Source of the DNA: Roseinatronobacter domitianus
GTDB lineage: Bacteria > Pseudomonadota > Alphaproteobacteria > Rhodobacterales > Rhodobacteraceae
Assembly (NCBI RefSeq): GCF_023336755.1
Contig: NZ_JALZWP010000016.1
Coordinates: forward strand, 1-64,000
Length of the DNA: 64,000 nt
Direction of reading: 5' to 3'
Part shown: positions 18,751 through 28,587 of the stretch, piece after piece
Layout of the letters: each line of letters starts with the position of its first letter
How positions within the stretch are numbered: the stretch's first letter is position 1
Program-made: the position numbers and the translations under genes
Notes under the pieces: model-generated
The model's input: the letters and a program-made list of their open reading frames with translations, nothing else
What the model was told of the DNA's origin: nothing
The model's database searches: none

Positions 18751-20847
18751 CTACATCTGCGTGTTCAGGTCTTTCAACAACCGACCATGCCGCCGCACTT
18801 CGGCCAACACATCGCCAAACGTGTCCAACCCCTTGGCCTGCAACATTGGCAGCAGTTTCAGGAATGCATCCGCCGTGGCCACCGTGTCACCAATGGCGGT
18901 GTGGCGGGCCTCTTCGGGGATGGTGATGCCCAGCCGCGCGGTCAGCGCATCCAGTGAATGCTGGTCCAACTGGCCATAAATCACCGCCGACAACAGCACC
19001 GTATCCAGCACCGGATGGTCGAACTGCACGCCGATATCTTTTTCGTGGCGGCGCAGAAATTCCATATCAAACGGCGCGTTATGTGCGATCAGCACCGCGC
19101 CACGGGCGAAGTCGTGGAACCGCTTGCCGGCCTCTGCCATGGAAGGCGCGCCTTTTACCATGTCTTCGGTTATGCCGTGCACATCGGTAGAGCTTTGCGG
19201 GATCGGCCTGCCCGGATCAACCAAAGTGTCGAACACCTCGCGCTGGACGCGGCGGCCATTGACCACGCGCACGGCGGCGATCTGCACGATCTCGTCAACC
19301 GATGGGGTGAGGCCCGTGGTTTCGGTGTCAAAAACCACATAGGTCAGGTCTACCAGCCGGCTTTCCAGCACGCCCGCATTGCGTTCTTTCGACAACAGGT
19401 CAAAATCATACACCACCTGACGTTCCAGCGGTGGCGGGCGGCGTGTGGCGCGGCGCGCTTGCGGGATGGGCAGGCGCACGGCGGCATGGCCATTCTGGCG
19501 CAGTTCTGTCCAGGCTTCGGTCATATGCGCCGACAGGACGGAGCGTGCGGTGACATCCGGCAAATCGGGGTCTATGCTGTCGGTCAGCCAACTGTCGAAT
19601 TCACCGACCGGCAGGGGCGGGCCTTGCCAGATCAGATCCAGGATCGCGCCGGGGCCGTCCTCTTCACTCAGGACCAGACGGAAGGTCTTGGCGCGCTTGG
19701 TCTTGGCCAGCTTGTGCCCCAACCAGCGGAAGAACAGGGCCAGTTCGAACCCGTCACAGGTCAGCACAAGTTCCGGGCCTTCCGTGCTCAGGAACAAACC
19801 TTCGGCGGTGAATTGCGCTTCGATCCCGTCCAGCAGGTCGTTCGAGAGGGTGCGGGTCTGCGGGGACCACTCGCCGCGCGTGGCGTCATGGCGCGCACCC
19901 AGTTCGGTGATTGCGCTGGTCAGAGTTTGCACTTCGGCTTGCATCGCGTCTGTCAGGTCGGTTTCATGCGCCAGATCGGGGCTTTCGCTTAGAACGCCGA
20001 TCACGGTTTGCAGGTTCGCGGCGGGGCGACGCACGCGGTCGAACACCTCTTGCAGCAGCGCTTCGCGCGCGGCATGTGCGGACAGGTCGGCGGTCACATC
20101 CCGCAAGGTCAGCACGAAACCGGGGCGGCGCGTGTTGTCGGTGCGGCGCAGCACGCGCATACGGCCCGACAACAGCCGCCCACTGGCGGTGGTGGCGCAC
20201 ATCAGGTCCGATACGGCGTCGGGGTCGTCCAGCTGCGACAGCCGGTCATAGGCGTGGCGCACTGGCCCTTCGCGCAGATAATCCAGCAGATTGCGGTCCA
20301 GACCGGGGGCCGCGCCGGCTTCCAGAATGGTCACCGCCTGCCCGTTGTAAAACGCGACCTGGTAATCGGCATTGCACAGCAACACGGCGACCGGCACATC
20401 GGCCAGCAGCTTTTCCAGCCGCGACTTTTCTGCCGAGAGACGCGCGGTTTCACGCGCAACGGATTCGGCCAGCGCCGAGCGTGTCTGTGCCAACGATGCG
20501 GTAATCGCCTCTGCCGCCGGGGCAAGGTCGCCCAGATAGCGCGCCTGCGCCGCTTCGCGTGCGAGGGGGCTTGCCACATCGGCATGGGCACGGCTGCGGA
20601 TTGCAGTGGACAGACCGTCAATGGCGCGGGCCACGTTGGCATCGAACAGATACCAGATTCCGGTCACGATAAATAGGATCAGAAACCCTGCGATCAGACC
20701 TGCCTGCACCAACGGCTCTTCCAGACCGGGTTGCGGATTTCGTGACAAGGTCAGCCAACCACCCGCCACGATCGCGGCAATTCCGCCAATGGCGATCAGC
20801 GCGAAAAACAGCAGGACTCGCAACCGCAGCGACATCCGATCAAGCAT
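18751..20847 (-). CDS. Membrane-anchored, degenerate histidine-kinase-like region fused to a DEDDh 3'-5' exonuclease
   Basis: The 698-residue protein has two membrane helices (about 9-32 and 46-66), a HAMP-like linker and a PAS-like segment (about 150-245). A helix resembling a kinase dimerisation domain (FDRVRRPAANLQTVIGVL, about 267-284) follows, in which the phospho-accepting His is replaced, and then a region resembling a diverged ATPase domain (about 330-450). The C-terminal 190 residues are a DnaQ-type exonuclease with FDTETTGL (about 504), HNAPFDMEF (about 586) and HTAIGDTVATADA (about 646), so all DEDDh residues are present. It is the last gene of the run symporter-DUF294-membrane protein-response regulator-exonuclease and overlaps the response regulator by 8 nt. 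The substrate may be DNA, RNA or a nucleotide signal. Confidence 0.85.
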   Translation of the reverse strand: MLDRMSLRLRVLLFFALIAIGGIAAIVAGGWLTLSRNPQPGLEEPLVQAGLIAGFLILFIVTGIWYLFDANVARAIDGLSTAIRSRAHADVASPLAREAAQARYLGDLAPAAEAITASLAQTRSALAESVARETARLSAEKSRLEKLLADVPVAVLLCNADYQVAFYNGQAVTILEAGAAPGLDRNLLDYLREGPVRHAYDRLSQLDDPDAVSDLMCATTASGRLLSGRMRVLRRTDNTRRPGFVLTLRDVTADLSAHAAREALLQEVFDRVRRPAANLQTVIGVLSESPDLAHETDLTDAMQAEVQTLTSAITELGARHDATRGEWSPQTRTLSNDLLDGIEAQFTAEGLFLSTEGPELVLTCDGFELALFFRWLGHKLAKTKRAKTFRLVLSEEDGPGAILDLIWQGPPLPVGEFDSWLTDSIDPDLPDVTARSVLSAHMTEAWTELRQNGHAAVRLPIPQARRATRRPPPLERQVVYDFDLLSKERNAGVLESRLVDLTYVVFDTETTGLTPSVDEIVQIAAVRVVNGRRVQREVFDTLVDPGRPIPQSSTDVHGITEDMVKGAPSMAEAGKRFHDFARGAVLIAHNAPFDMEFLRRHEKDIGVQFDHPVLDTVLLSAVIYGQLDQHSLDALTARLGITIPEEARHTAIGDTVATADAFLKLLPMLQAKGLDTFGDVLAEVRRHGRLLKDLNTQM

Positions 20848-21268
20848 CTTGCGCGCCCGCCGCGCCGGGTGCCATGGCCATCCGGTCGCTGCCGAGCATC
20901 CGCCGCACCTCGTCGCGCAGCACTTTCAACTCAAACGGTTTAGAGATGAACCCATCCGCGCCCATCGCCAGTCCCTTGCGCCGTTCCACAGCAGAGCCGC
21001 GTGCGGTCATCATCAGAATACGGACCCCATCGCAATCGGGGCGTGCCCGCACCCTCTGGCAGATTTCGTAGCCAGAGACCTCTGGAAGCATGACATCCAA
21101 CAACACAAGGTCTGGTCTGCGTTTGCAGATCATGTCCACCGCGCCTGCGCCGGTGGCAAGGCGTGTTTGCGAATAGCCTTCGCGGGTCAGCAGGTAGTCA
21201 AGAGCAATGGCGATATTGTCCTCATCCTCGATCACCAATATCTCAGCCCTGCGCGCTTGATCCTCCAT
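20840..21268 (-). CDS. Single-domain response regulator (receiver only)
   Basis: The 142-residue protein is a CheY-like receiver: acidic pair in VIEDEDN (about 12-17), phospho-acceptor Asp in LVLLDVMLPEVSG (about 55), Thr in MMTARG and Lys in SKPFEL. There is no output domain; a short Ala/Gly-rich tail follows. The ATG at 21268 follows GAGGAGAGGACA; the frame opens six codons earlier. It overlaps both neighbours (26 nt with the upstream gene, 8 nt with the exonuclease gene), so it is co-translated with them. The expected phosphodonor is unclear because the adjacent kinase-like protein lacks the His. Confidence 0.92.
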   Translation of the reverse strand: MEDQARRAEILVIEDEDNIAIALDYLLTREGYSQTRLATGAGAVDMICKRRPDLVLLDVMLPEVSGYEICQRVRARPDCDGVRILMMTARGSAVERRKGLAMGADGFISKPFELKVLRDEVRRMLGSDRMAMAPGAAGAQDA

Positions 21269-21794
21269 TGTCCTCTCCTCCTCCACAAGCGGTCGTCAGA
21301 AACGGGTCATCAGGCGCCATTCTGAACCAGTCCACGTCTTGCGGGATGCCCTCTTCATCCAGCACCGTGTTTTGGGTCAGGTCTGCGCGGCGCCCTCCCG
21401 CACAATCGAACATGGACTGGAACCCGAAGGTCAGCGCCCAGCGTTCTTTCAGGATAACCCCGGTCACGATGTAATCGGGGGTATTCGCGTTGGTCTGGCG
21501 AATGCGGTTATCAATCGCGATAATCCGCGTGGTCAAGGGCACAGCAAAGGTCCAAGGCCGATACCAGACGCGGTGTTCGTTGCGGCTGACGACTGTTACA
21601 TCTTCGGGCAGCCCGGCCTCGAACCGGCCCGCCCAGCTATATTCCAGATAGATCACCATCAGCACCATGGCCGCGGCCGCGCCGAATGGCGCGGTCCAGT
21701 CGGGCAGGCGGCGCAGGGTCAGACGGTGCGCGATCAGGGCAATGCCAAAGCCTGCCACCCCCGCTACGACCACCGCGAAAAATTCTATAAACAT
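21243..21794 (-). CDS. Conserved-context membrane protein of unknown function
   Basis: The 183-residue protein starts at 21794 (AAAGGG site) with a hydrophobic helix MFIEFFAVVVAGVAGFGIAL, then a second helix (APFGAAAAMVLMVIYLEYSW). A soluble C-terminal domain with RVWYRPWTFAVPLT and a conserved-looking FQSMFDCAGGRRADL segment follows. I do not recognise the family. It lies 13 nt after the DUF294 gene and overlaps the response regulator, so it belongs to the acetate-linked signalling run. Two cysteines (one in the FDCAGG loop and one in the terminal ACGGG) could be redox or disulfide residues if that part is periplasmic. Confidence 0.75.
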   Translation of the reverse strand: MFIEFFAVVVAGVAGFGIALIAHRLTLRRLPDWTAPFGAAAAMVLMVIYLEYSWAGRFEAGLPEDVTVVSRNEHRVWYRPWTFAVPLTTRIIAIDNRIRQTNANTPDYIVTGVILKERWALTFGFQSMFDCAGGRRADLTQNTVLDEEGIPQDVDWFRMAPDDPFLTTACGGGEDNGGSSAQG

Positions 21795-21807
21795 GGATTG
21801 CGCCCTT

Positions 21808-23637
21808 TCAGCCCAATGTGCCTGCAAGCTGCCCCGCGGCAGATTGCATGGTGCGCACGACGACGAAGGCGTCGCGCAGGTGGCTGCGCTCGAAATCGGA
21901 CAGGTCCGATGGCGCGAGGAAGTTGTCGGGTTTGCGACCCATACGCACCAGCGTAGCCTGGTTTTCCAGTCGCAGGTCGGCGATCAGATCGTAAGCCTCG
22001 ATCAGATCACGCGCGCCAGAGACGGATATGATCCCGAGCTCTTCGGCGGCCAGCAGCCGCGCGCGGGTGTTTACCGCCGGGATTCGCCCGCGCAGCGCAT
22101 AGACGCGCGCAAGATCGGTGATCGGCACAACGCCGCCCAGTTTCATATCGACATGGTTCTTGTGTTCGCCAGAGCGGATGGTGGCAAAGCCGCGCAGCAG
22201 CCCAAGGGGCGGCGCGTGCTTGATGGAGTTCGACACCATATGCGCCACGAAAATCGAGTTCTTGCTGGCGGCTTCCAGCGTTTCCGCCTGCAAGTCACGA
22301 AACAGGCTGACTTGCCCGCCGATAGGGCGCAGGTCGAACATGACAGAGGCCAGCATCTGCGCTTCGGTCGAGGGCGTGTTGATCCAGCCTTGGAAATAGC
22401 GCCGCCAGACAGAGACGGGTTGGCACCAGCGCGGGTTCGTGGCCATCATATCGCCGGGGCAATAGAAATAACCCGCCGCATCCAGCCCGTCGCTGACATA
22501 GCGCGCCAGCTTGGTGAAATAGGCCATATCCTCGGGCGTGGCGCTATCGTCGATAATCAGGCAGTTATCCTGATCGCTGACGCCGGTTTGTTCTTGCCGT
22601 CCCTGACTGCCGCATGCGGCCCACAGATAGGGCACGGGCGCGGGGCCGAATTCGTCTTCGGCCATGCGCAACAGGCGGCGGGTGACGGTGTCGGCAATAT
22701 CGGTAATCAGCCGTGTCACCACATCATGTGCATTATGCGCGCCGACAAGCTGCGTCAGCAGTTGCGGTATACGGGCGGTTACGTCGGCAAGGCCCGCGTA
22801 GTCTTTCGCATTTGCCGCGTCGCGCACCAGTTGGGCCGAGCTGATCGCCTGAAAGCGTGTCAGGTCGGTTTGGGTAATCATGCCCACCAGCTTGCCGCCG
22901 CGCGTGACCGGCACATGGCCGATGCGGTGTTCCAGCATCATGTGCAGAATGTCGGACCCCAGCGCGCTGGGGTCGAGCGCCATGGGATCGCGGGTCATGA
23001 ATTCGGACAGTGGTGTGTCGGGGCTACGCCCTTCGGCCAGAACTTTGCCCGACAGGTCGCGCGTGGTGACAATACCCACCAACCGCTCGCCCTCGACCAC
23101 AGGAAGGCAGGAAATGCGATACTCGCGCAACAGCTTGGCGGCGTCTTGCGCGGTGGTGTCGGGGCTGGCGCTGCGCGGGTTACGCACCATCAGATCGGCC
23201 ACTTTCAACGTGGCAAGGTCATTCTGGCGGCCCAGTTTGTTTTGGCCCTGACCGCGGCTGAAAAACCGTTCAAACGCCGGGAAATTGGCGATCAGGTGGC
23301 GCAATTCGCCGCCGGGCAGTTGCAGCAAAACCGTGTCGGATGTGGTGGTTGCGGTGGTGGCCGCGCGCCCGTCGCGCAGCAGCCCGCGCTCGCCAAAGGA
23401 ATTGCGCGGGTTCAGGATGGACACAAGCGCGCCATGGGTGTCCGTCACTTCCACAGTGCCAGACTTGACCAGCCAGACGCCGCCAATGGGTTCACCTTCG
23501 GTATAGATGACGGTGCCGGTGGGGTATTCGATGCGGCTGAAGGAATTGGCGACGCGCGTCAATTCGTCAAGCGGCAACGTGTCATACGGGTGCACCGATT
23601 GCAGGAAGTCCAGAACCTTGGGGCTGAGATCGGGCAT
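21808..23637 (-). CDS. Cyclic-nucleotide-binding / CBS / DUF294 nucleotidyltransferase-like protein
   Basis: The 609-residue protein has, in order, a CAP-ED cyclic-nucleotide-binding domain (about 20-140, with SFGERGLLRDGRAATTAT as the phosphate-binding cassette), two CBS motifs (about 155-275), a DUF294 nucleotidyltransferase core with GSQGRQEQTGVSDQDN (about 342-357), and the DUF294 C-terminal helical domain. The GS...DxD layout resembles GlnD-type enzymes. Family members are commonly next to VC_2705-type symporters and an exonuclease. It is 69 nt downstream of the symporter gene. It probably senses adenine nucleotides and modifies a target, but neither ligand nor product is established by sequence. 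Confidence 0.9.
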   Translation of the reverse strand: MPDLSPKVLDFLQSVHPYDTLPLDELTRVANSFSRIEYPTGTVIYTEGEPIGGVWLVKSGTVEVTDTHGALVSILNPRNSFGERGLLRDGRAATTATTTSDTVLLQLPGGELRHLIANFPAFERFFSRGQGQNKLGRQNDLATLKVADLMVRNPRSASPDTTAQDAAKLLREYRISCLPVVEGERLVGIVTTRDLSGKVLAEGRSPDTPLSEFMTRDPMALDPSALGSDILHMMLEHRIGHVPVTRGGKLVGMITQTDLTRFQAISSAQLVRDAANAKDYAGLADVTARIPQLLTQLVGAHNAHDVVTRLITDIADTVTRRLLRMAEDEFGPAPVPYLWAACGSQGRQEQTGVSDQDNCLIIDDSATPEDMAYFTKLARYVSDGLDAAGYFYCPGDMMATNPRWCQPVSVWRRYFQGWINTPSTEAQMLASVMFDLRPIGGQVSLFRDLQAETLEAASKNSIFVAHMVSNSIKHAPPLGLLRGFATIRSGEHKNHVDMKLGGVVPITDLARVYALRGRIPAVNTRARLLAAEELGIISVSGARDLIEAYDLIADLRLENQATLVRMGRKPDNFLAPSDLSDFERSHLRDAFVVVRTMQSAAGQLAGTLG

Positions 23638-23706: not shown

Positions 23707-25473
23707 TCAGTGAGCGACAGCGCCGCCAGCACCTTTCGGAACGCGGATGCCTTCGACCATTTCCTGAATCTCTGCCGGTGCATCGCCCGTCATCTTGTTG
23801 ACGATGAAAGCAGCGGTGAAGTTCAGGGCAGCGCCTACAGCACCGAAGCTCAGCGGCGAGATGCCGAAGATCCAGTTGTCAGGCGTGTTGGCCAGCATGT
23901 TGGTGCCGGGGATGAAGAACCAGCCCAGGTAGGTGAAGATGTAGAGCACGGTCGAGCCGAGACCCACGATCATCCCTGCAACAGCGCCCGCCGAGTTCAT
24001 CTTCTTGCTGAAGATACCCATCATGATGGCCGGGAACAGCGAGCTTGCTGCCAGACCGAAGGCCAGTGCCACGGTTTGCGCCGCAAACCCCGGAGGATTC
24101 AAGCCCAGATAGGTTGCCAGCGCAATGGCGAAGGCCATCGAGATGCGGGCGGCCATCAGCTCTCCCTTTTCCGAGATGGAGGGGTTGAGCATGGACTTGA
24201 TCAGGTCATGGCTGATGGCGGACGAGATTGCCAGCAACAGACCTGCTGCCGTGGACAATGCCGCTGCCAGACCGCCAGCCGCGATCAGACCAATCACCCA
24301 GCCCGGAAGCTGTGCAATTTCCGGGTTGGCAAGCACCAGGATGTCACGGTTGAAGGTGACCATCTCGTTGCCGGCCCAGCCCAGACCTTCAGCGAAGGCA
24401 GGTGCGTTGGCGTCGTTGTAATACTGGATGAAGCCGTCGCCGTTCTTGTCTTCGAACGCCAGAAGACCAGTGTTCTCCCAGTTTATCATCCAGTCCGGCT
24501 TGTCAGCATAGGCCAGCGGCTGTTCCTGCACACCGTTCGGGAAGATGGTGGTGATGATGTTCAGGCGTGCCATGGCACCAACAGCAGGTGCAACGGTATA
24601 CAGCAGCGCGATGAAAACCAGCGCCCAACCTGCCGATTTACGCGCATCCGACACTTTCGGAACGGTAAAGAAGCGGATGATGACGTGCGGCAGACCCGCG
24701 GTGCCGATCATCAGCGACAGGGTGAACAGCACCATGTTGAAGGTCGAGCCATGGTTGCCGGTGTAGTCGTTGAAGCCCAGTTCGACGAGAACCTCGTTCA
24801 AGGTTGTCAACAGCGGCTGGCCCGACCCGGTATGGGTTGCGAACAGGCCCAACTGCGGCAGAGGGTTGCCGGTCAGTTGCAGCGAGATGAAGATCGCCGG
24901 GATGGTGTAGGCGATAATCAGCACGACATACTGCGCAAGCTGCGTGTAGGTGATGCCCTTCATGCCGCCCAGAACCGAATAGGCAAACACAACTGCGGCT
25001 GCGATCAGCAGGCCGGTCGTGTTGTCCACTTCCAGAAAGCGCGAGAAGGCCACGCCTGCACCGGTCATCTGGCCGATAACATAGGTGATCGAGGCGACCA
25101 GAAGCGAGATGATGGCCAGCGTGCGTGCGGTTTGGCTGTAGTAGCGGTCGCCGATGAAATCAGGCACGGTGAAACGGCCGAACTTGCGCAGATAAGGCGC
25201 CAGCAGCATGGCCAGAAGCACATAACCGCCCGTCCAACCCATCAGGAAGGTCGAGTTGCCGTAGCCCACGAAGGCGATCAGGCCCGCCATCGAGATGAAC
25301 GAAGCCGCCGACATCCAGTCAGCGGCCGTGGCAGCCCCGTTGACGATGGGATTTACCCCACGCGAAGCGGCATAGAAGTCAGAGGTCGACCCGGCGCGCG
25401 CCCAGATCGCGATCCCGATATAGAGCGCGAATGACGCGCCCACGAAGATAAGGTTGATTAGAAATTGATCCAT
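23707..25473 (-). CDS. Sodium:solute symporter large subunit, VC_2705 subfamily (acetate/monocarboxylate uptake)
   Basis: The 588-residue SSS-family carrier has about 13 membrane helices and typical segments GGMKGITYTQLAQYVVLIIAY and GGLAAALSTAAGLLLAISSAI. The VC_2705 subfamily works with a small DUF4212 subunit, encoded 14 nt upstream. Related to ActP, it is expected to import acetate or similar short acids with Na+. A 60-residue insertion rich in Asp and Asn (DKNGDGFIQYYNDANAPAF) interrupts the membrane part and resembles an EF-hand-like calcium loop. The position downstream of acs-adk supports acetate as substrate. Confidence 0.92.
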   Translation of the reverse strand: MDQFLINLIFVGASFALYIGIAIWARAGSTSDFYAASRGVNPIVNGAATAADWMSAASFISMAGLIAFVGYGNSTFLMGWTGGYVLLAMLLAPYLRKFGRFTVPDFIGDRYYSQTARTLAIISLLVASITYVIGQMTGAGVAFSRFLEVDNTTGLLIAAAVVFAYSVLGGMKGITYTQLAQYVVLIIAYTIPAIFISLQLTGNPLPQLGLFATHTGSGQPLLTTLNEVLVELGFNDYTGNHGSTFNMVLFTLSLMIGTAGLPHVIIRFFTVPKVSDARKSAGWALVFIALLYTVAPAVGAMARLNIITTIFPNGVQEQPLAYADKPDWMINWENTGLLAFEDKNGDGFIQYYNDANAPAFAEGLGWAGNEMVTFNRDILVLANPEIAQLPGWVIGLIAAGGLAAALSTAAGLLLAISSAISHDLIKSMLNPSISEKGELMAARISMAFAIALATYLGLNPPGFAAQTVALAFGLAASSLFPAIMMGIFSKKMNSAGAVAGMIVGLGSTVLYIFTYLGWFFIPGTNMLANTPDNWIFGISPLSFGAVGAALNFTAAFIVNKMTGDAPAEIQEMVEGIRVPKGAGGAVAH

Positions 25474-25487
25474 TGCTCAGGTATCCC

Positions 25488-25742
25488 TTATTCTTCCACG
25501 TCAAACTCTTTATCGAGCTTGTTCATGTAAGAGGTGTAGTAAAAAATGAGCACGATAAAGGTCAGGATCGAGCCTTGCTGCGCGAACCAGAACCCAAGAT
25601 CGGTGCCCCCGACCGGAATACCCGACAGAAGCGGGCGTAGAATGATAGCGAACCCAAAGGACACCAACGCCCAGATTACCAAGCTGATGCTGATAATTCT
25701 GAGGTTGGCGGACCAATAGGCGCCTCTCGACTTGTCTGACAT
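25488..25742 (-). CDS. DUF4212 small subunit of sodium/substrate symporter
   Basis: The 84-residue protein has two membrane helices (about 12-34 and 50-70) and the family ending KLDKEFDVEE. Members pair with VC_2705-type symporters. The ATG at 25742 follows GGGAG at a good distance; the frame opens 16 codons earlier but without conservation. It starts the symporter/signalling run, 173 nt after adk. Confidence 0.9.
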   Translation of the reverse strand: MSDKSRGAYWSANLRIISISLVIWALVSFGFAIILRPLLSGIPVGGTDLGFWFAQQGSILTFIVLIFYYTSYMNKLDKEFDVEE

Positions 25743-25915
25743 TGTGACGTCTCCCAGTTTCCTCCTGCGCCTGCCCCATGATTGAGGCAAGCATCCTCAC
25801 TTTGTCCGGCTCTGCCGCGCAGTGGCGGCAGGGGACCGGCGGCAAGTCCGACCTCTCCTTGATCGTCTTGCACTTTTCGGCACCCGAAAGTGCCAAGCCC
25901 GGTTGCCCGGAACCC

Positions 25916-26530
25916 TTAATCCGCGACCGATGACACGATGGCGGACATTTCTTTCGCGATCCCGTCGATCTCGCCCATGGCGTCGACATGGCGCAGAGCG
26001 CCTTTCGCGTGGTAATACCCAATCAACGGCGAGGTTTTCTTGTAATATTCCATCAAGCGCAGCTTGAGGCTGTCTTCGTTATCGTCGGCGCGCACGGGCT
26101 GGCCTGCGGCTTTCGCTTCTTCGGCGCGGTTCAGGATGCGCTTGACCAGAACCTCGTCATCCACCTCCATCGCGACGACGGCATCAAGGCGCTGACCCGA
26201 CTTTTCCAACAATGCGCCCAGCGCATCGGCCTGCGCCAAGGTGCGTGGGAACCCGTCGAAAATGAACCCATCGGCCTTGACGGTGGTCAGTTGTTCTTCG
26301 ATCAGGCCGATTACGATGTCATCGGTGACAAGCTCACCCTTGTCCATGACATCTGCCACGCGCTTGCCCATTTCGGTCCCAGAGGTCCGGGCCGCGCGCA
26401 GCATGTCGCCAGTCGACAGTTGAACCATGTTGCGCGACGTCGCCAGACGTTGCGCTTGCGTGCCTTTGCCAGCCCCCGGAGGGCCAAGCAAAATGACGTT
26501 CACGGGACGGGTTTGTGTTTCAGTCGTCAT
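25916..26530 (-). CDS. adk: Adenylate kinase, short-LID form
   Basis: The 204-residue enzyme interconverts AMP + ATP and 2 ADP. Walker [11 protein letters not shown] is at about 16-25, the AMP-binding region STGDMLRAA at about 39-47, and [10 protein letters not shown] at about 89-98. The LID domain is short: the segment after [13 protein letters not shown] goes directly to [14 protein letters not shown], without the zinc or hydrogen-bond LID of the long form. It lies 4 nt after acs, so it is positioned to remove the AMP that acetyl-CoA synthetase makes. In many bacteria adk is in the ribosomal protein locus; here it may be a second copy. Confidence 0.95.
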
Positions 26531-26534
26531 AGAC

Positions 26535-28481
26535 TCAGCCTCGGTTCATGCGGTTTTCGATCAGGTCATCGACCACCGACGGGTCGGCCAGTGTCGAGGT
26601 GTCACCCAAAGCGCCATAGTCGTTCTCTGCGATTTTGCGCAGAATGCGGCGCATAATCTTACCCGAACGGGTTTTCGGCAGGCCGGGCGCCCATTGAATC
26701 AGATCAGGGCTGGCGATAGGGCCGATTTCGGTGCGGACCCATTTGACCAGCTCTTTGCGCAGCTCATCCGTGGGCTCTACATTGTTCATCAGGGTGACAT
26801 AGGCGTAGATGCCCTGACCCTTGATGTCATGCGGGTAGCCCACCACAGCGGCTTCGGCCACGGTTTCATGCGCCACCAGCGCCGATTCCACTTCTGCCGT
26901 GCCCATGCGGTGCCCGGACACGTTGATTACGTCATCGACGCGGCCTGTGATCCAGTAATCACCATCGGCATCACGGCGGCAGCCGTCGCCGGTGAAATAG
27001 TAACCCCTATACTGGCTGAAATAGGTTTCCATGAAGCGTTCATGGTCGCCCCAGACGGTGCGCATCTGCCCCGGCCAGCTATCTTTCACGCACAGAACAC
27101 CTTCGGCGGCGGTGTCGGTCTGCACCTCGGCGGTGGCCGGGTCCAGCACTTCCAGTTGCACGCCAAAGAACGGCTTGGTGGCAGCCCCTGGCTTGGCGGG
27201 TGTCGCGCCGGGCAGGGCGGTGACCATGTGGCCGCCGGTTTCGGTCTGCCAGAACGTATCGACAATCGGGCATTTGCCCTTGCCGACATGAGTGTTGTAC
27301 CAGTTCCACGCTTCGGGGTTAATGGGTTCGCCCACCGACCCTAGCAGCTTGAGCGACGACAGATCGTGCTTTTCAACCCATTCCGGCCCTTGCCCCATCA
27401 GCGCGCGGATGGCGGTGGGGGCGGTGTAGAATTGGTTGACCTTGTGCTTGGCGCAAACTTCCCAGAACCGGCCCGCATCGGGGTAGGTCGGCACCCCCTC
27501 GAACATGATCGTGGTCGCGCCATTGGCCAGCGGACCATACACGATGTAGCTATGGCCCGTGACCCAACCCACATCGGCGGTGCACCAGAAGATGTCGCCA
27601 TCGTGGTAATCGAAGGTCAGTTCCTGCGTCATCGCGGCATAAACCAAGTAGCCGCCCGATGTATGCACCACACCTTTGGGCCGCCCGGTGGAGCCGGAAG
27701 TGTATAGGATGAACAGCGGATCTTCTGCGCCAACCTCTTCGGGCGGGCAATCGGTGCTGGCGTCGGCCATCATGGCTTTCACGTCCAGATCGCGCCCCTC
27801 GATCCATGTGGTCTGGTCGCCCGTGTGCTTGACGACAAAACACTTCACCTTGTCCGAGCAATCGAACAGCGCCTTGTCGGTGTTCGACTTCAGCGCGGTG
27901 CGACGCCCGCCGCGTGGGGCGGTGTCGGCGGTGATGACGGCCACTGCGCCACAATCGTTGATGCGGTTGGCCAATGCGTCGGGCGAGAACCCGGCGAAAA
28001 CGATGGAATGGATCGCGCCAATGCGCGCGCAAGCCAGCATGGCATAGGCCGCTTCGGGGATCATCGGCAGGTAGATGATGACGCGGTCGCCTTTGCCGAT
28101 ACCCTGCGCCTTGAAGACGTTGGCCATACGGCTGACTTCGTCTTTCAGTTCCGCGTAGCTGATATGGCGGGCAGGCGTCTTGGGATCATCGGGCTCCCAG
28201 ATGATCGCGGTCTGGTCGCCGCGCGTGGCAACGTGGCGGTCAACGCAATTGGCAGCAACATTCAGCGTGCCATCTTCAAACCATTTAATGTCTACCTTGC
28301 CGAACTCGAAATTGGTGTTCTTCACTTTGGTGAACGGCTTGATCCAGTCGATGCGTTTGCCATGCTCGGCCCAGAATGCGTCCGGGTCGGATACGGATGC
28401 GGCATACATTTCTTCGTATTGCGCCGCGTTCACATGCGCATTGGCAATGAATTCGTCGGATGCCGGGTAGGTCTGTGACAT
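26535..28481 (-). CDS. acs: Acetyl-CoA synthetase (AMP-forming)
   Basis: The 648-residue enzyme activates acetate through acetyl-AMP to acetyl-CoA. Adenylate-forming motifs are [14 protein letters not shown] (about 269-282), [11 protein letters not shown] (about 415-425), the TGD of YFTGDG, and the C-terminal [10 protein letters not shown] with the acetylation-regulated Lys. The start at 28481 has GGAGGAGC before it; the frame extends nine codons upstream without need. It is the first gene of the acetate block, with a 380-bp upstream region. Co-transcription with adk is likely. Confidence 0.97.
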
Positions 28482-28587
28482 GAATGCTCCTCCAGTCGTG
28501 GGGAGCATGGTTGCGCATCATCGCGCCTGTGCCCCCCTGTCGTGGTGATGCGACGCAAAGCTGCGGCACCACCTTTCCCCGTGGCTG

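Follow-up and report, generated by a model that had tools for sequence, protein, structure and literature searches.

A putative pseudo-histidine kinase–exonuclease and its overlapping receiver gene in Roseinatronobacter domitianus and other Pseudomonadota

The usual end point of a two-component system is a transcription factor or some other regulatory output domain, and a locus of Roseinatronobacter domitianus raises the question of what may stand at the end of such a pathway when the receiver carries no output domain and its gene overlaps one for a nuclease. The window, that is, the whole 64,000-nucleotide (nt) stretch analyzed here (contig NZ_JALZWP010000016.1, positions 1 to 64,000), contains this gene on the minus strand at 18751–20847. 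In its product an earlier note, made from the sequence alone, had seen two membrane helices, a PAS-like region, a dimerization helix without its His, a diverged ATPase-like region and a complete DnaQ-type exonuclease, as well as the overlap with a stand-alone receiver gene; all of these are borne out below. Moreover, we observe that throughout the family the DHp-like hairpin of the protein and the adjacent receiver are mostly gained and lost together, which is new here. This joint presence and absence supports a link of the pseudokinase to the overlapping receiver, the association being a genetic one only. The earlier note's suggestion of a sensor-controlled nuclease that destroys RNA or a nucleotide signal is thus supported in part, namely for the kinase fold, the missing phospho-His and the link to the receiver, whereas control of the nuclease and its action on such substrates are conjectural.

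The kinase-like core and the exonuclease

The regions considered are as follows (window coordinates, all on the minus strand).

18751..20847, minus: pseudo-histidine-kinase/exonuclease gene, open reading frame (ORF) of 698 residues, Pfam RNase_T
20644..20820, minus: two predicted membrane helices, about residues 10–34 and 45–68, hydrophobic stretches read by eye
20098..20412, minus: PAS domain, about residues 146–250
19867..20097, minus: DHp-like two-helix hairpin, residues 251–327 (model helices 251–288 and 296–327), with profile matches to histidine kinases
20038..20040, minus: Asp270 in the phospho-His column, within FDRVRRP
20029..20031, minus: Arg273 (His+3), positional equivalent of DivL Arg553, the receiver-docking residue in DivL
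19450..19857, minus: degenerate kinase ATPase (CA) domain, residues 331–466
19627..19629, minus: Trp407 in the G1-box Asp column
18790..19356, minus: DEDDh 3'-5' exonuclease domain, residues 498–686 (D507, E509, D594, H649, D654)
20840..21268, minus: stand-alone receiver, 142 residues from ATG, Response_reg E 6.5e-26

The N-terminal hydrophobic stretches fall in helices 7–36 and 43–89 of the AlphaFold2 model. The PAS domain is matched by PAS_4 at residues 150–253 (E 7e-4, 20.2 bits, under the curated cut-off of 23.1 bits) and by PpsR in VIA structure comparison (Z 13.0, root-mean-square deviation 3.0, 107 aligned). Among 26 family members, the window's included, Pfam at E≤1 identifies RNase_T in 26, PAS_4 in 18 and HATPase_c in one (E 0.15). 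For the window protein single-sequence Pfam yields neither HisKA nor HATPase_c; as the kinase core is invisible to it, profiles were needed for the kinase alignment that had been made by eye. Profile A4 (28 rows, about residues 256–478), compared with PDB sequences, has Caulobacter DivL as the top match (E 2.4e-7), and of 27 rows at E≤1 the first 17 are histidine kinases or kinase-domain chimeras, the remainder being mixed. With profile A6 (19 rows, residues 100–475) all 20 PDB rows at E≤1e-3 are histidine kinases, two of them WalK PAS-region fragments, and the best match, VicK (E 1.6e-17), spans almost the entire profile.

The model of the full protein, built on a 60-row alignment, has a mean pLDDT of 80.2 and a pTM of 0.39, so that its domain arrangement is unreliable. 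As VIA comparison of the full model was swamped by exonuclease matches, the core was folded separately (residues 140–472, mean pLDDT 86.0). The CA domain is matched by the ATP-binding domain of PrrB (VIA Z 14.3, root-mean-square deviation 2.6, 132 aligned), and the first 50 Foldseek matches of the core are histidine kinases together with related phytochrome, NifL and hybrid-regulator structures, with WalK leading (E 5.3e-17) and DivL at E 4.4e-9. By profiles and models alike, the region 251–466 is predicted to have the histidine-kinase DHp and CA fold; the earlier note had staked its reading on kinase-like folds in residues 260–450, and a kinase fold is what was found there.

To locate the His, N-box and G1 columns, the family was aligned together with genuine kinases to a single profile. 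Only four control kinases reached E≤1e-3; they have His in 3/4, the N-box Asn in 3/4 and the G1 Asp in 3/3, one of them (L235 in our numbering of loci) being out of register at the His column. The family has His in 0/139 homologues at the phospho-His column and Asp or Glu in 126/139, the N-box Asn in 1/150, and at the G1 column Asp in 0/150 and Trp in 143/150. Arg at His+3 is retained in 138/139. In the aligned receivers the phospho-Asp and the Lys are each present in 135/135 and the Thr in 131/135. The 139 homologues comprise 61 from the genome draw and 78 from a second set of named loci; the 135 receivers are all matches within 700 nt, including L209 and L318 (the latter part of an ORF of 1668 residues). 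The two sets share at least five loci, so that some members of the samples of 135, 139 and 150 are not independent.

An active histidine kinase is rejected on account of the lost His, N-box Asn and G1 Asp, and judged by these residues the kinase is dead across the family; the Trp in the G1 column may block nucleotide binding. As the docking Arg, the nuclease residues and the receiver residues are kept while the kinase residues are lost, constraint seems to act on docking and on the nuclease, and not on kinase chemistry.

The exonuclease domain is, by its residues, complete and intact-looking: RNase_T matches residues 504–662 (E 2.8e-37, 129.2 bits vs the gathering score of 24), and the five catalytic residues (D, E, D, H, D) are each kept in 113/113 loci. 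In VIA its structure aligns with 9qpc, a DNA polymerase, at Z 25.2 and with 2gui, Pol III epsilon, at Z 21.4, and the best NCBIfam E-value belongs to a PolC model (2.4e-45). A DnaQ orthologue is rejected because of the shortfall against the proteobacterial DnaQ equivalog TIGR01406 (103.7 vs 222.7 bits), although the broad epsilon-family domain model TIGR00573 is passed (113.3 vs 71.5 bits). A second related exonuclease gene (38%) is present elsewhere in the genome.

The hairpin and the receiver across the family

Some exonuclease match was found in 118 of 120 genomes drawn from Rhodobacteraceae, where forms of about 690 residues mostly have a receiver gene and forms of about 470 residues, consisting of membrane helices, PAS and exonuclease, do not. 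The sample was widened to 385 genomes of other Alphaproteobacteria and 398 genomes of the phylum; the latter gave 63 matches at E≤1e-15, the weakest of which may be ordinary kinases. Betaproteobacterial examples are located on two Cupriavidus necator plasmids. The pseudokinase-exonuclease, whose fusion the earlier note called unusual, is a recurrent Pseudomonadota family, not a rare oddity. No fusion of a pseudokinase with an exonuclease was found described among the papers listed from open-licence PubMed Central (PMC), the only literature covered, which is not proof of absence. Two copies, L146 (record titled Alkalisalibacterium limincola) and L111 (Caenispirillum salinarum), are close to Rhodobacteraceae forms, by transfer or because of a mislabelled contig.

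The hairpin was coded as present if at least 70 residues separate PAS and CA. Under this rule 58 of 113 loci have both the hairpin and an adjacent receiver, 51 have neither, and four are discordant (109/113 concordant). One of the latter, L305, has 69 residues between PAS and CA and was recoded as hairpin-present after reading, giving 59 loci with both, 51 with neither and three discordant (L207, L302 and L315), that is, 110/113 concordant. L315 has a receiver and a shorter hairpin, which the length rule counts as a mismatch; L207 was scored discordant, with a receiver located about 4.6 kb off, next to a transporter-kinase gene. The receiver of L295, missed by a length filter, was set to present after reading, and that of L209, a weak match of 35 bits, was scored present.

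Left out before the table was made were L052 (split ORF) and L091 (weak), and, for little or no upstream sequence, L073, L077, L078, L080, L081 and L088; five dropped loci re-entered with longer sequence as L327–L331, the short forms L332–L334 were added, and L324–L326 were never among the 113 rows. L318, with a scrambled PAS–CA stretch and no stand-alone receiver found, was also left out. In this locus the stretch looks out of frame and the genome is 74% complete, so the gene may be degenerate or misassembled.

The association is also seen among the 72 proteins in which the CA domain is retained: the receiver is present in 59/61 of those with the hairpin and absent in 10/11 of those without (Fisher p 1.3e-9, with descent not corrected for). 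Eight of these ten loci lacking both hairpin and receiver (all except L316 and L317) retain the symporter, DUF294 and membrane-protein genes. On a tree of 429 columns, from which the trait columns were excluded and whose bootstrap is not fully settled, the hairpin and the receiver each change nine times; supported branches give five independent pairs, in which the receiver follows the direction of the hairpin in a mean of 4.6 and opposes it in 0.0.

Named long-form loci with upstream sequence, chosen for the core and not for the receiver, have the receiver in 74/76, the exceptions being L122 and L146. The metagenome-assembled genome CSSed162cmA_247 carries two pseudokinase-exonuclease copies, L132 with a receiver and L122 beside a different symporter without one. 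Thirteen loci on named plasmids, taken from 35 records found, are concordant in 9/13 by the length rule. The strict mismatches are Paracoccus denitrificans, P. yeei, Ciceribacter and Neorhizobium; counting the first two by eye, as they have the receiver and a visibly shorter hairpin, gives 11/13.

Operon context and a possible mechanism

The gene is the last of a tight minus-strand cluster, whose order is acs, an adenylate-kinase-like gene, DUF4212, a VC_2705-family symporter, DUF294, a small membrane-protein gene, the receiver and the exonuclease gene. The members upstream of the receiver are the following.

21243..21827, minus: small membrane-protein gene, start codon uncertain, no Pfam match at E≤1
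21808..23637, minus: cNMP-binding/CBS/DUF294 putative nucleotidyltransferase (Pfam)
23707..25473, minus: VC_2705-family sodium/solute symporter (TIGR03648, E 1.6e-244)
25488..25790, minus: DUF4212 symporter small subunit (PF13937, TIGR03647)
25916..26530, between acs and DUF4212: adenylate-kinase-like gene, named by sequence and position only
26538..28517, minus: acetyl-CoA synthetase (acs), upstream of the cluster, 83% identity to the acs-like gene of L056

The end of the receiver gene shares 8 nt with the start of the exonuclease gene. For the receiver the most likely start codon is the ATG at 21268, which is preceded by a purine-rich stretch (the ORF listing starts at 21286); Response_reg is its sole Pfam match above the cut-off, leaving no output domain in the 142 residues. 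In the matching Paracoccus operon the gene corresponding to acs is annotated as such; in Paracoccus denitrificans PD1222 the receiver is PDEN_RS22690 and the exonuclease PDEN_RS22695. Among the named relatives found, Roseibaca sp. Y0-43 is the nearest (92% across the query region, 91% across the protein). The small membrane-protein gene sits between DUF294 and the receiver or exonuclease gene in most related transporter-type operons and is missing from that of Paracoccus yeei. The adenylate-kinase-like gene lies upstream of DUF4212 in most relatives, with mixed identity, mostly 40–57% and in a few cases 72–90%; two types of the gene may occupy this place.

A candidate source of phosphate for the receiver is suggested by neighboring genes. 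A transporter-kinase gene related to that of L056 lies within 1.5 kb in 26/59 loci with hairpin and receiver and in 0/43 scored loci with neither, counts that are limited by flank lengths and, as all our neighbor counts close to contig ends, are lower bounds. For example, on plasmid pPAN2 of Paracoccus pantotrophus the order is a DUF294-type gene, a small gene, the transporter-kinase, the receiver and the exonuclease gene, with overlapping ends. HisKA and HATPase_c are above the cut-off in 6/6 full-length transporter-kinases scanned, and the N-terminal parts are alike (50–57% where first measured); SSF is above the cut-off in only two of nine proteins or pieces scanned (L241 and the L206 piece), three pieces (L203, L205 and L206) stopping before any kinase domain. 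Their architecture suggests SLC5-type, CrbS-like proteins.

The surrounding system is partly known. CrbS/CrbR controls acetate use, CrbR activating acs transcription (PMC5715377), and pp_0353 of Pseudomonas putida, an RNase_T protein encoded in an operon with the CBS-domain pp_0354, is a target of MxtR/ErdR (CrbS/CrbR) (PMC9927547). Deletion of pp_0353 slows the onset of growth on pyruvate and not on acetate, deletion of pp_0354 causes no delay on either, and pp_0353 homologues adjoin actP in other Pseudomonas; the authors speculate on mRNA decay and leave the pyruvate effect open (PMC9927547).

We consider it probable that the window protein is a DivL-like sensor of the receiver, gating an exonuclease within an acetate/pyruvate circuit. 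The membrane-anchored pseudo-histidine kinase would sense its partner receiver, and the 3'-5' exonuclease would be the output. A genuine kinase, most likely an SLC5/CrbS-type transporter-kinase responding to acetate- or pyruvate-like substrates, would phosphorylate the stand-alone receiver, which would dock on the DHp hairpin of the dead kinase as DivK~P does on DivL. A movement of the hairpin and PAS would then alter how active or how accessible the exonuclease is at the membrane, close to the DUF294 nucleotidyltransferase and the symporter of acetate type.

Several observations weigh against this scheme. The sign test on independent pairs has a median p of 0.0625 (range 0.0625–0.25). Ciceribacter and Neorhizobium keep the hairpin and have no receiver in the 5 kb upstream; their docking Arg is apparently replaced, by Gly and Lys as read by eye, which fits hairpin decay following receiver loss. 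L302, where about 10 kb on each side yielded no receiver, keeps the hairpin and the Arg, and L122 and L146 keep both without an adjacent receiver; these three loci point in the opposite direction. As many as 41/113 loci are without any ATPase domain, which means that the nuclease does not require the core. Covariation across the DHp/receiver interface is weak (p 0.027, alpha-1 window rank 20/99), only one of the top 25 covarying pairs lying in the interface. The strongest pairs link the His site with T+2 of the receiver and His+5 with D+2; we take these receiver positions to be close to the active site, which makes the pairs suggestive, the scripted interface test remaining weak. For the residue columns, profile K at E≤1e-3 recovered only four of the kinase ORFs supplied, which came from L056 and 21 own-genome HisKA loci. 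Finally, 118/120 family genomes match the transporter-kinase query at E≤1e-20, some via the kinase part alone, so that its presence in a genome does not discriminate, and the one transporter-kinase of the window genome sits on another contig (43% identity); the kinase acting on the window receiver is therefore, like the docking, its phospho-dependence, the sign of regulation and the substrate, something that we infer.

The best of the alternatives, which we nevertheless think rather unlikely, is that the core is only a dimerization or membrane scaffold, with PAS as the sensor and the receiver acting on another product of the operon, namely the DUF294 protein, the small membrane protein or the symporter. 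The short forms without core or receiver, which occupy the same operon, and the weak interface covariation agree with it. What it leaves unaccounted for is that the receiver follows the hairpin, and neither the CA domain nor the operon: the CA-keeping proteins without a hairpin lack the receiver in all cases except one, mostly in otherwise conserved gene surroundings, and Arg at His+3 is nearly invariant.

An exonuclease of general DNA proofreading or repair, placed in an incidental acetate neighborhood, would suit the polymerase exonucleases found as the closest structures and the passed TIGR00573 model. We regard it as unlikely, given the failed TIGR01406 model, the related exonuclease gene elsewhere in the genome, the pyruvate phenotype of pp_0353 (PMC9927547), and the association with DUF294. 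A DUF294 gene occurs within 8 kb in 92/105 scored loci; moreover, in five of seven fetched loci (L349–L353), from other Pseudomonadota, RNase_T, CBS, DUF294 and DUF294_C share one ORF (frames of 704–823 residues), a separate exonuclease gene standing beside the DUF294 gene in the other two.

That the core is still active, through unusual ATP use or as a receiver phosphatase with an acidic residue in place of His, is very improbable: the strong preference for Asp or Glu in the His column indicates some constraint, and it is countered by the loss of the N-box Asn and of the G1 Asp, mostly to Trp, and by the lack of kinase or phosphatase activity of DivL in vitro (PMC4211667).

Returning to the proposed receiver-gated exonuclease, the fusions with DUF294 suggest a nucleotidyltransferase as a partner, and a survey groups DUF294_C with GlnD/GlnE-type nucleotidyltransferases (PMC3710099). 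Together they motivate a tentative and rather speculative view of a writer/eraser pair, in which a cNMP/CBS-controlled DUF294 protein might attach nucleotides to a protein or to the end of an RNA and the membrane exonuclease might remove them. The symporter would be an example of a protein target, and the receiver, in this equally doubtful extension, would set the eraser through the pseudokinase. The absence of a pyruvate phenotype for pp_0354 weighs somewhat against a simple version of the pair. If true, it would mean a phosphorelay driving a nucleotidylation cycle instead of transcription.

Comparison with known systems

All parts of the protein are of known kinds, and what is new is a putative receiver-sensing pseudokinase paired with an exonuclease output: in this family a dead kinase seems to serve as the receptor for a receiver, and a nuclease as the output. 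This would offer a route from acetate or pyruvate sensing to post-transcriptional or post-translational control, and might help to explain the effect of a putative exonuclease operon of Pseudomonas on growth on pyruvate (PMC9927547).

The exonuclease resembles the domains of Pol III epsilon (DnaQ) and PolC in the DEDDh fold and catalytic residues, and differs from DnaQ in being apparently membrane-anchored, fused to a kinase-like core and under the DnaQ equivalog cut-off. Similarly to pp_0353 of P. putida, compared by description only, it has RNase_T and an operon with a CBS-domain protein, whereas the published account of pp_0353, in its excerpt, gives no secretion signal, no kinase-like part and no receiver. 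Transporter-kinase genes whose architecture suggests SLC5/STAC kinases of the CrbS/CrbR type flank the receiver and the pseudokinase-exonuclease in many relatives; unlike CrbR, which activates acs transcription (PMC5715377), the putative partner receiver here is without an output domain.

The closest parallel is DivL/DivK of Caulobacter, with a PAS–DHp–CA core, a replaced His, a kept Arg at His+3 and a single-domain receiver, which here is a putative partner. The R553A substitution of DivL weakens DivK~P binding, and DivL is without kinase and phosphatase activity in vitro, carries Tyr550 in place of the His and has the CckA phosphorelay as its target (PMC4211667). With Asp270 at this site the window protein is not DivL proper: its family has Asp or Glu at the His site, a fused exonuclease and an acetate-type operon, and would carry the idea of reversed information flow, as put forward for DivL, over to the control of an enzyme removing nucleic acid or nucleotides.

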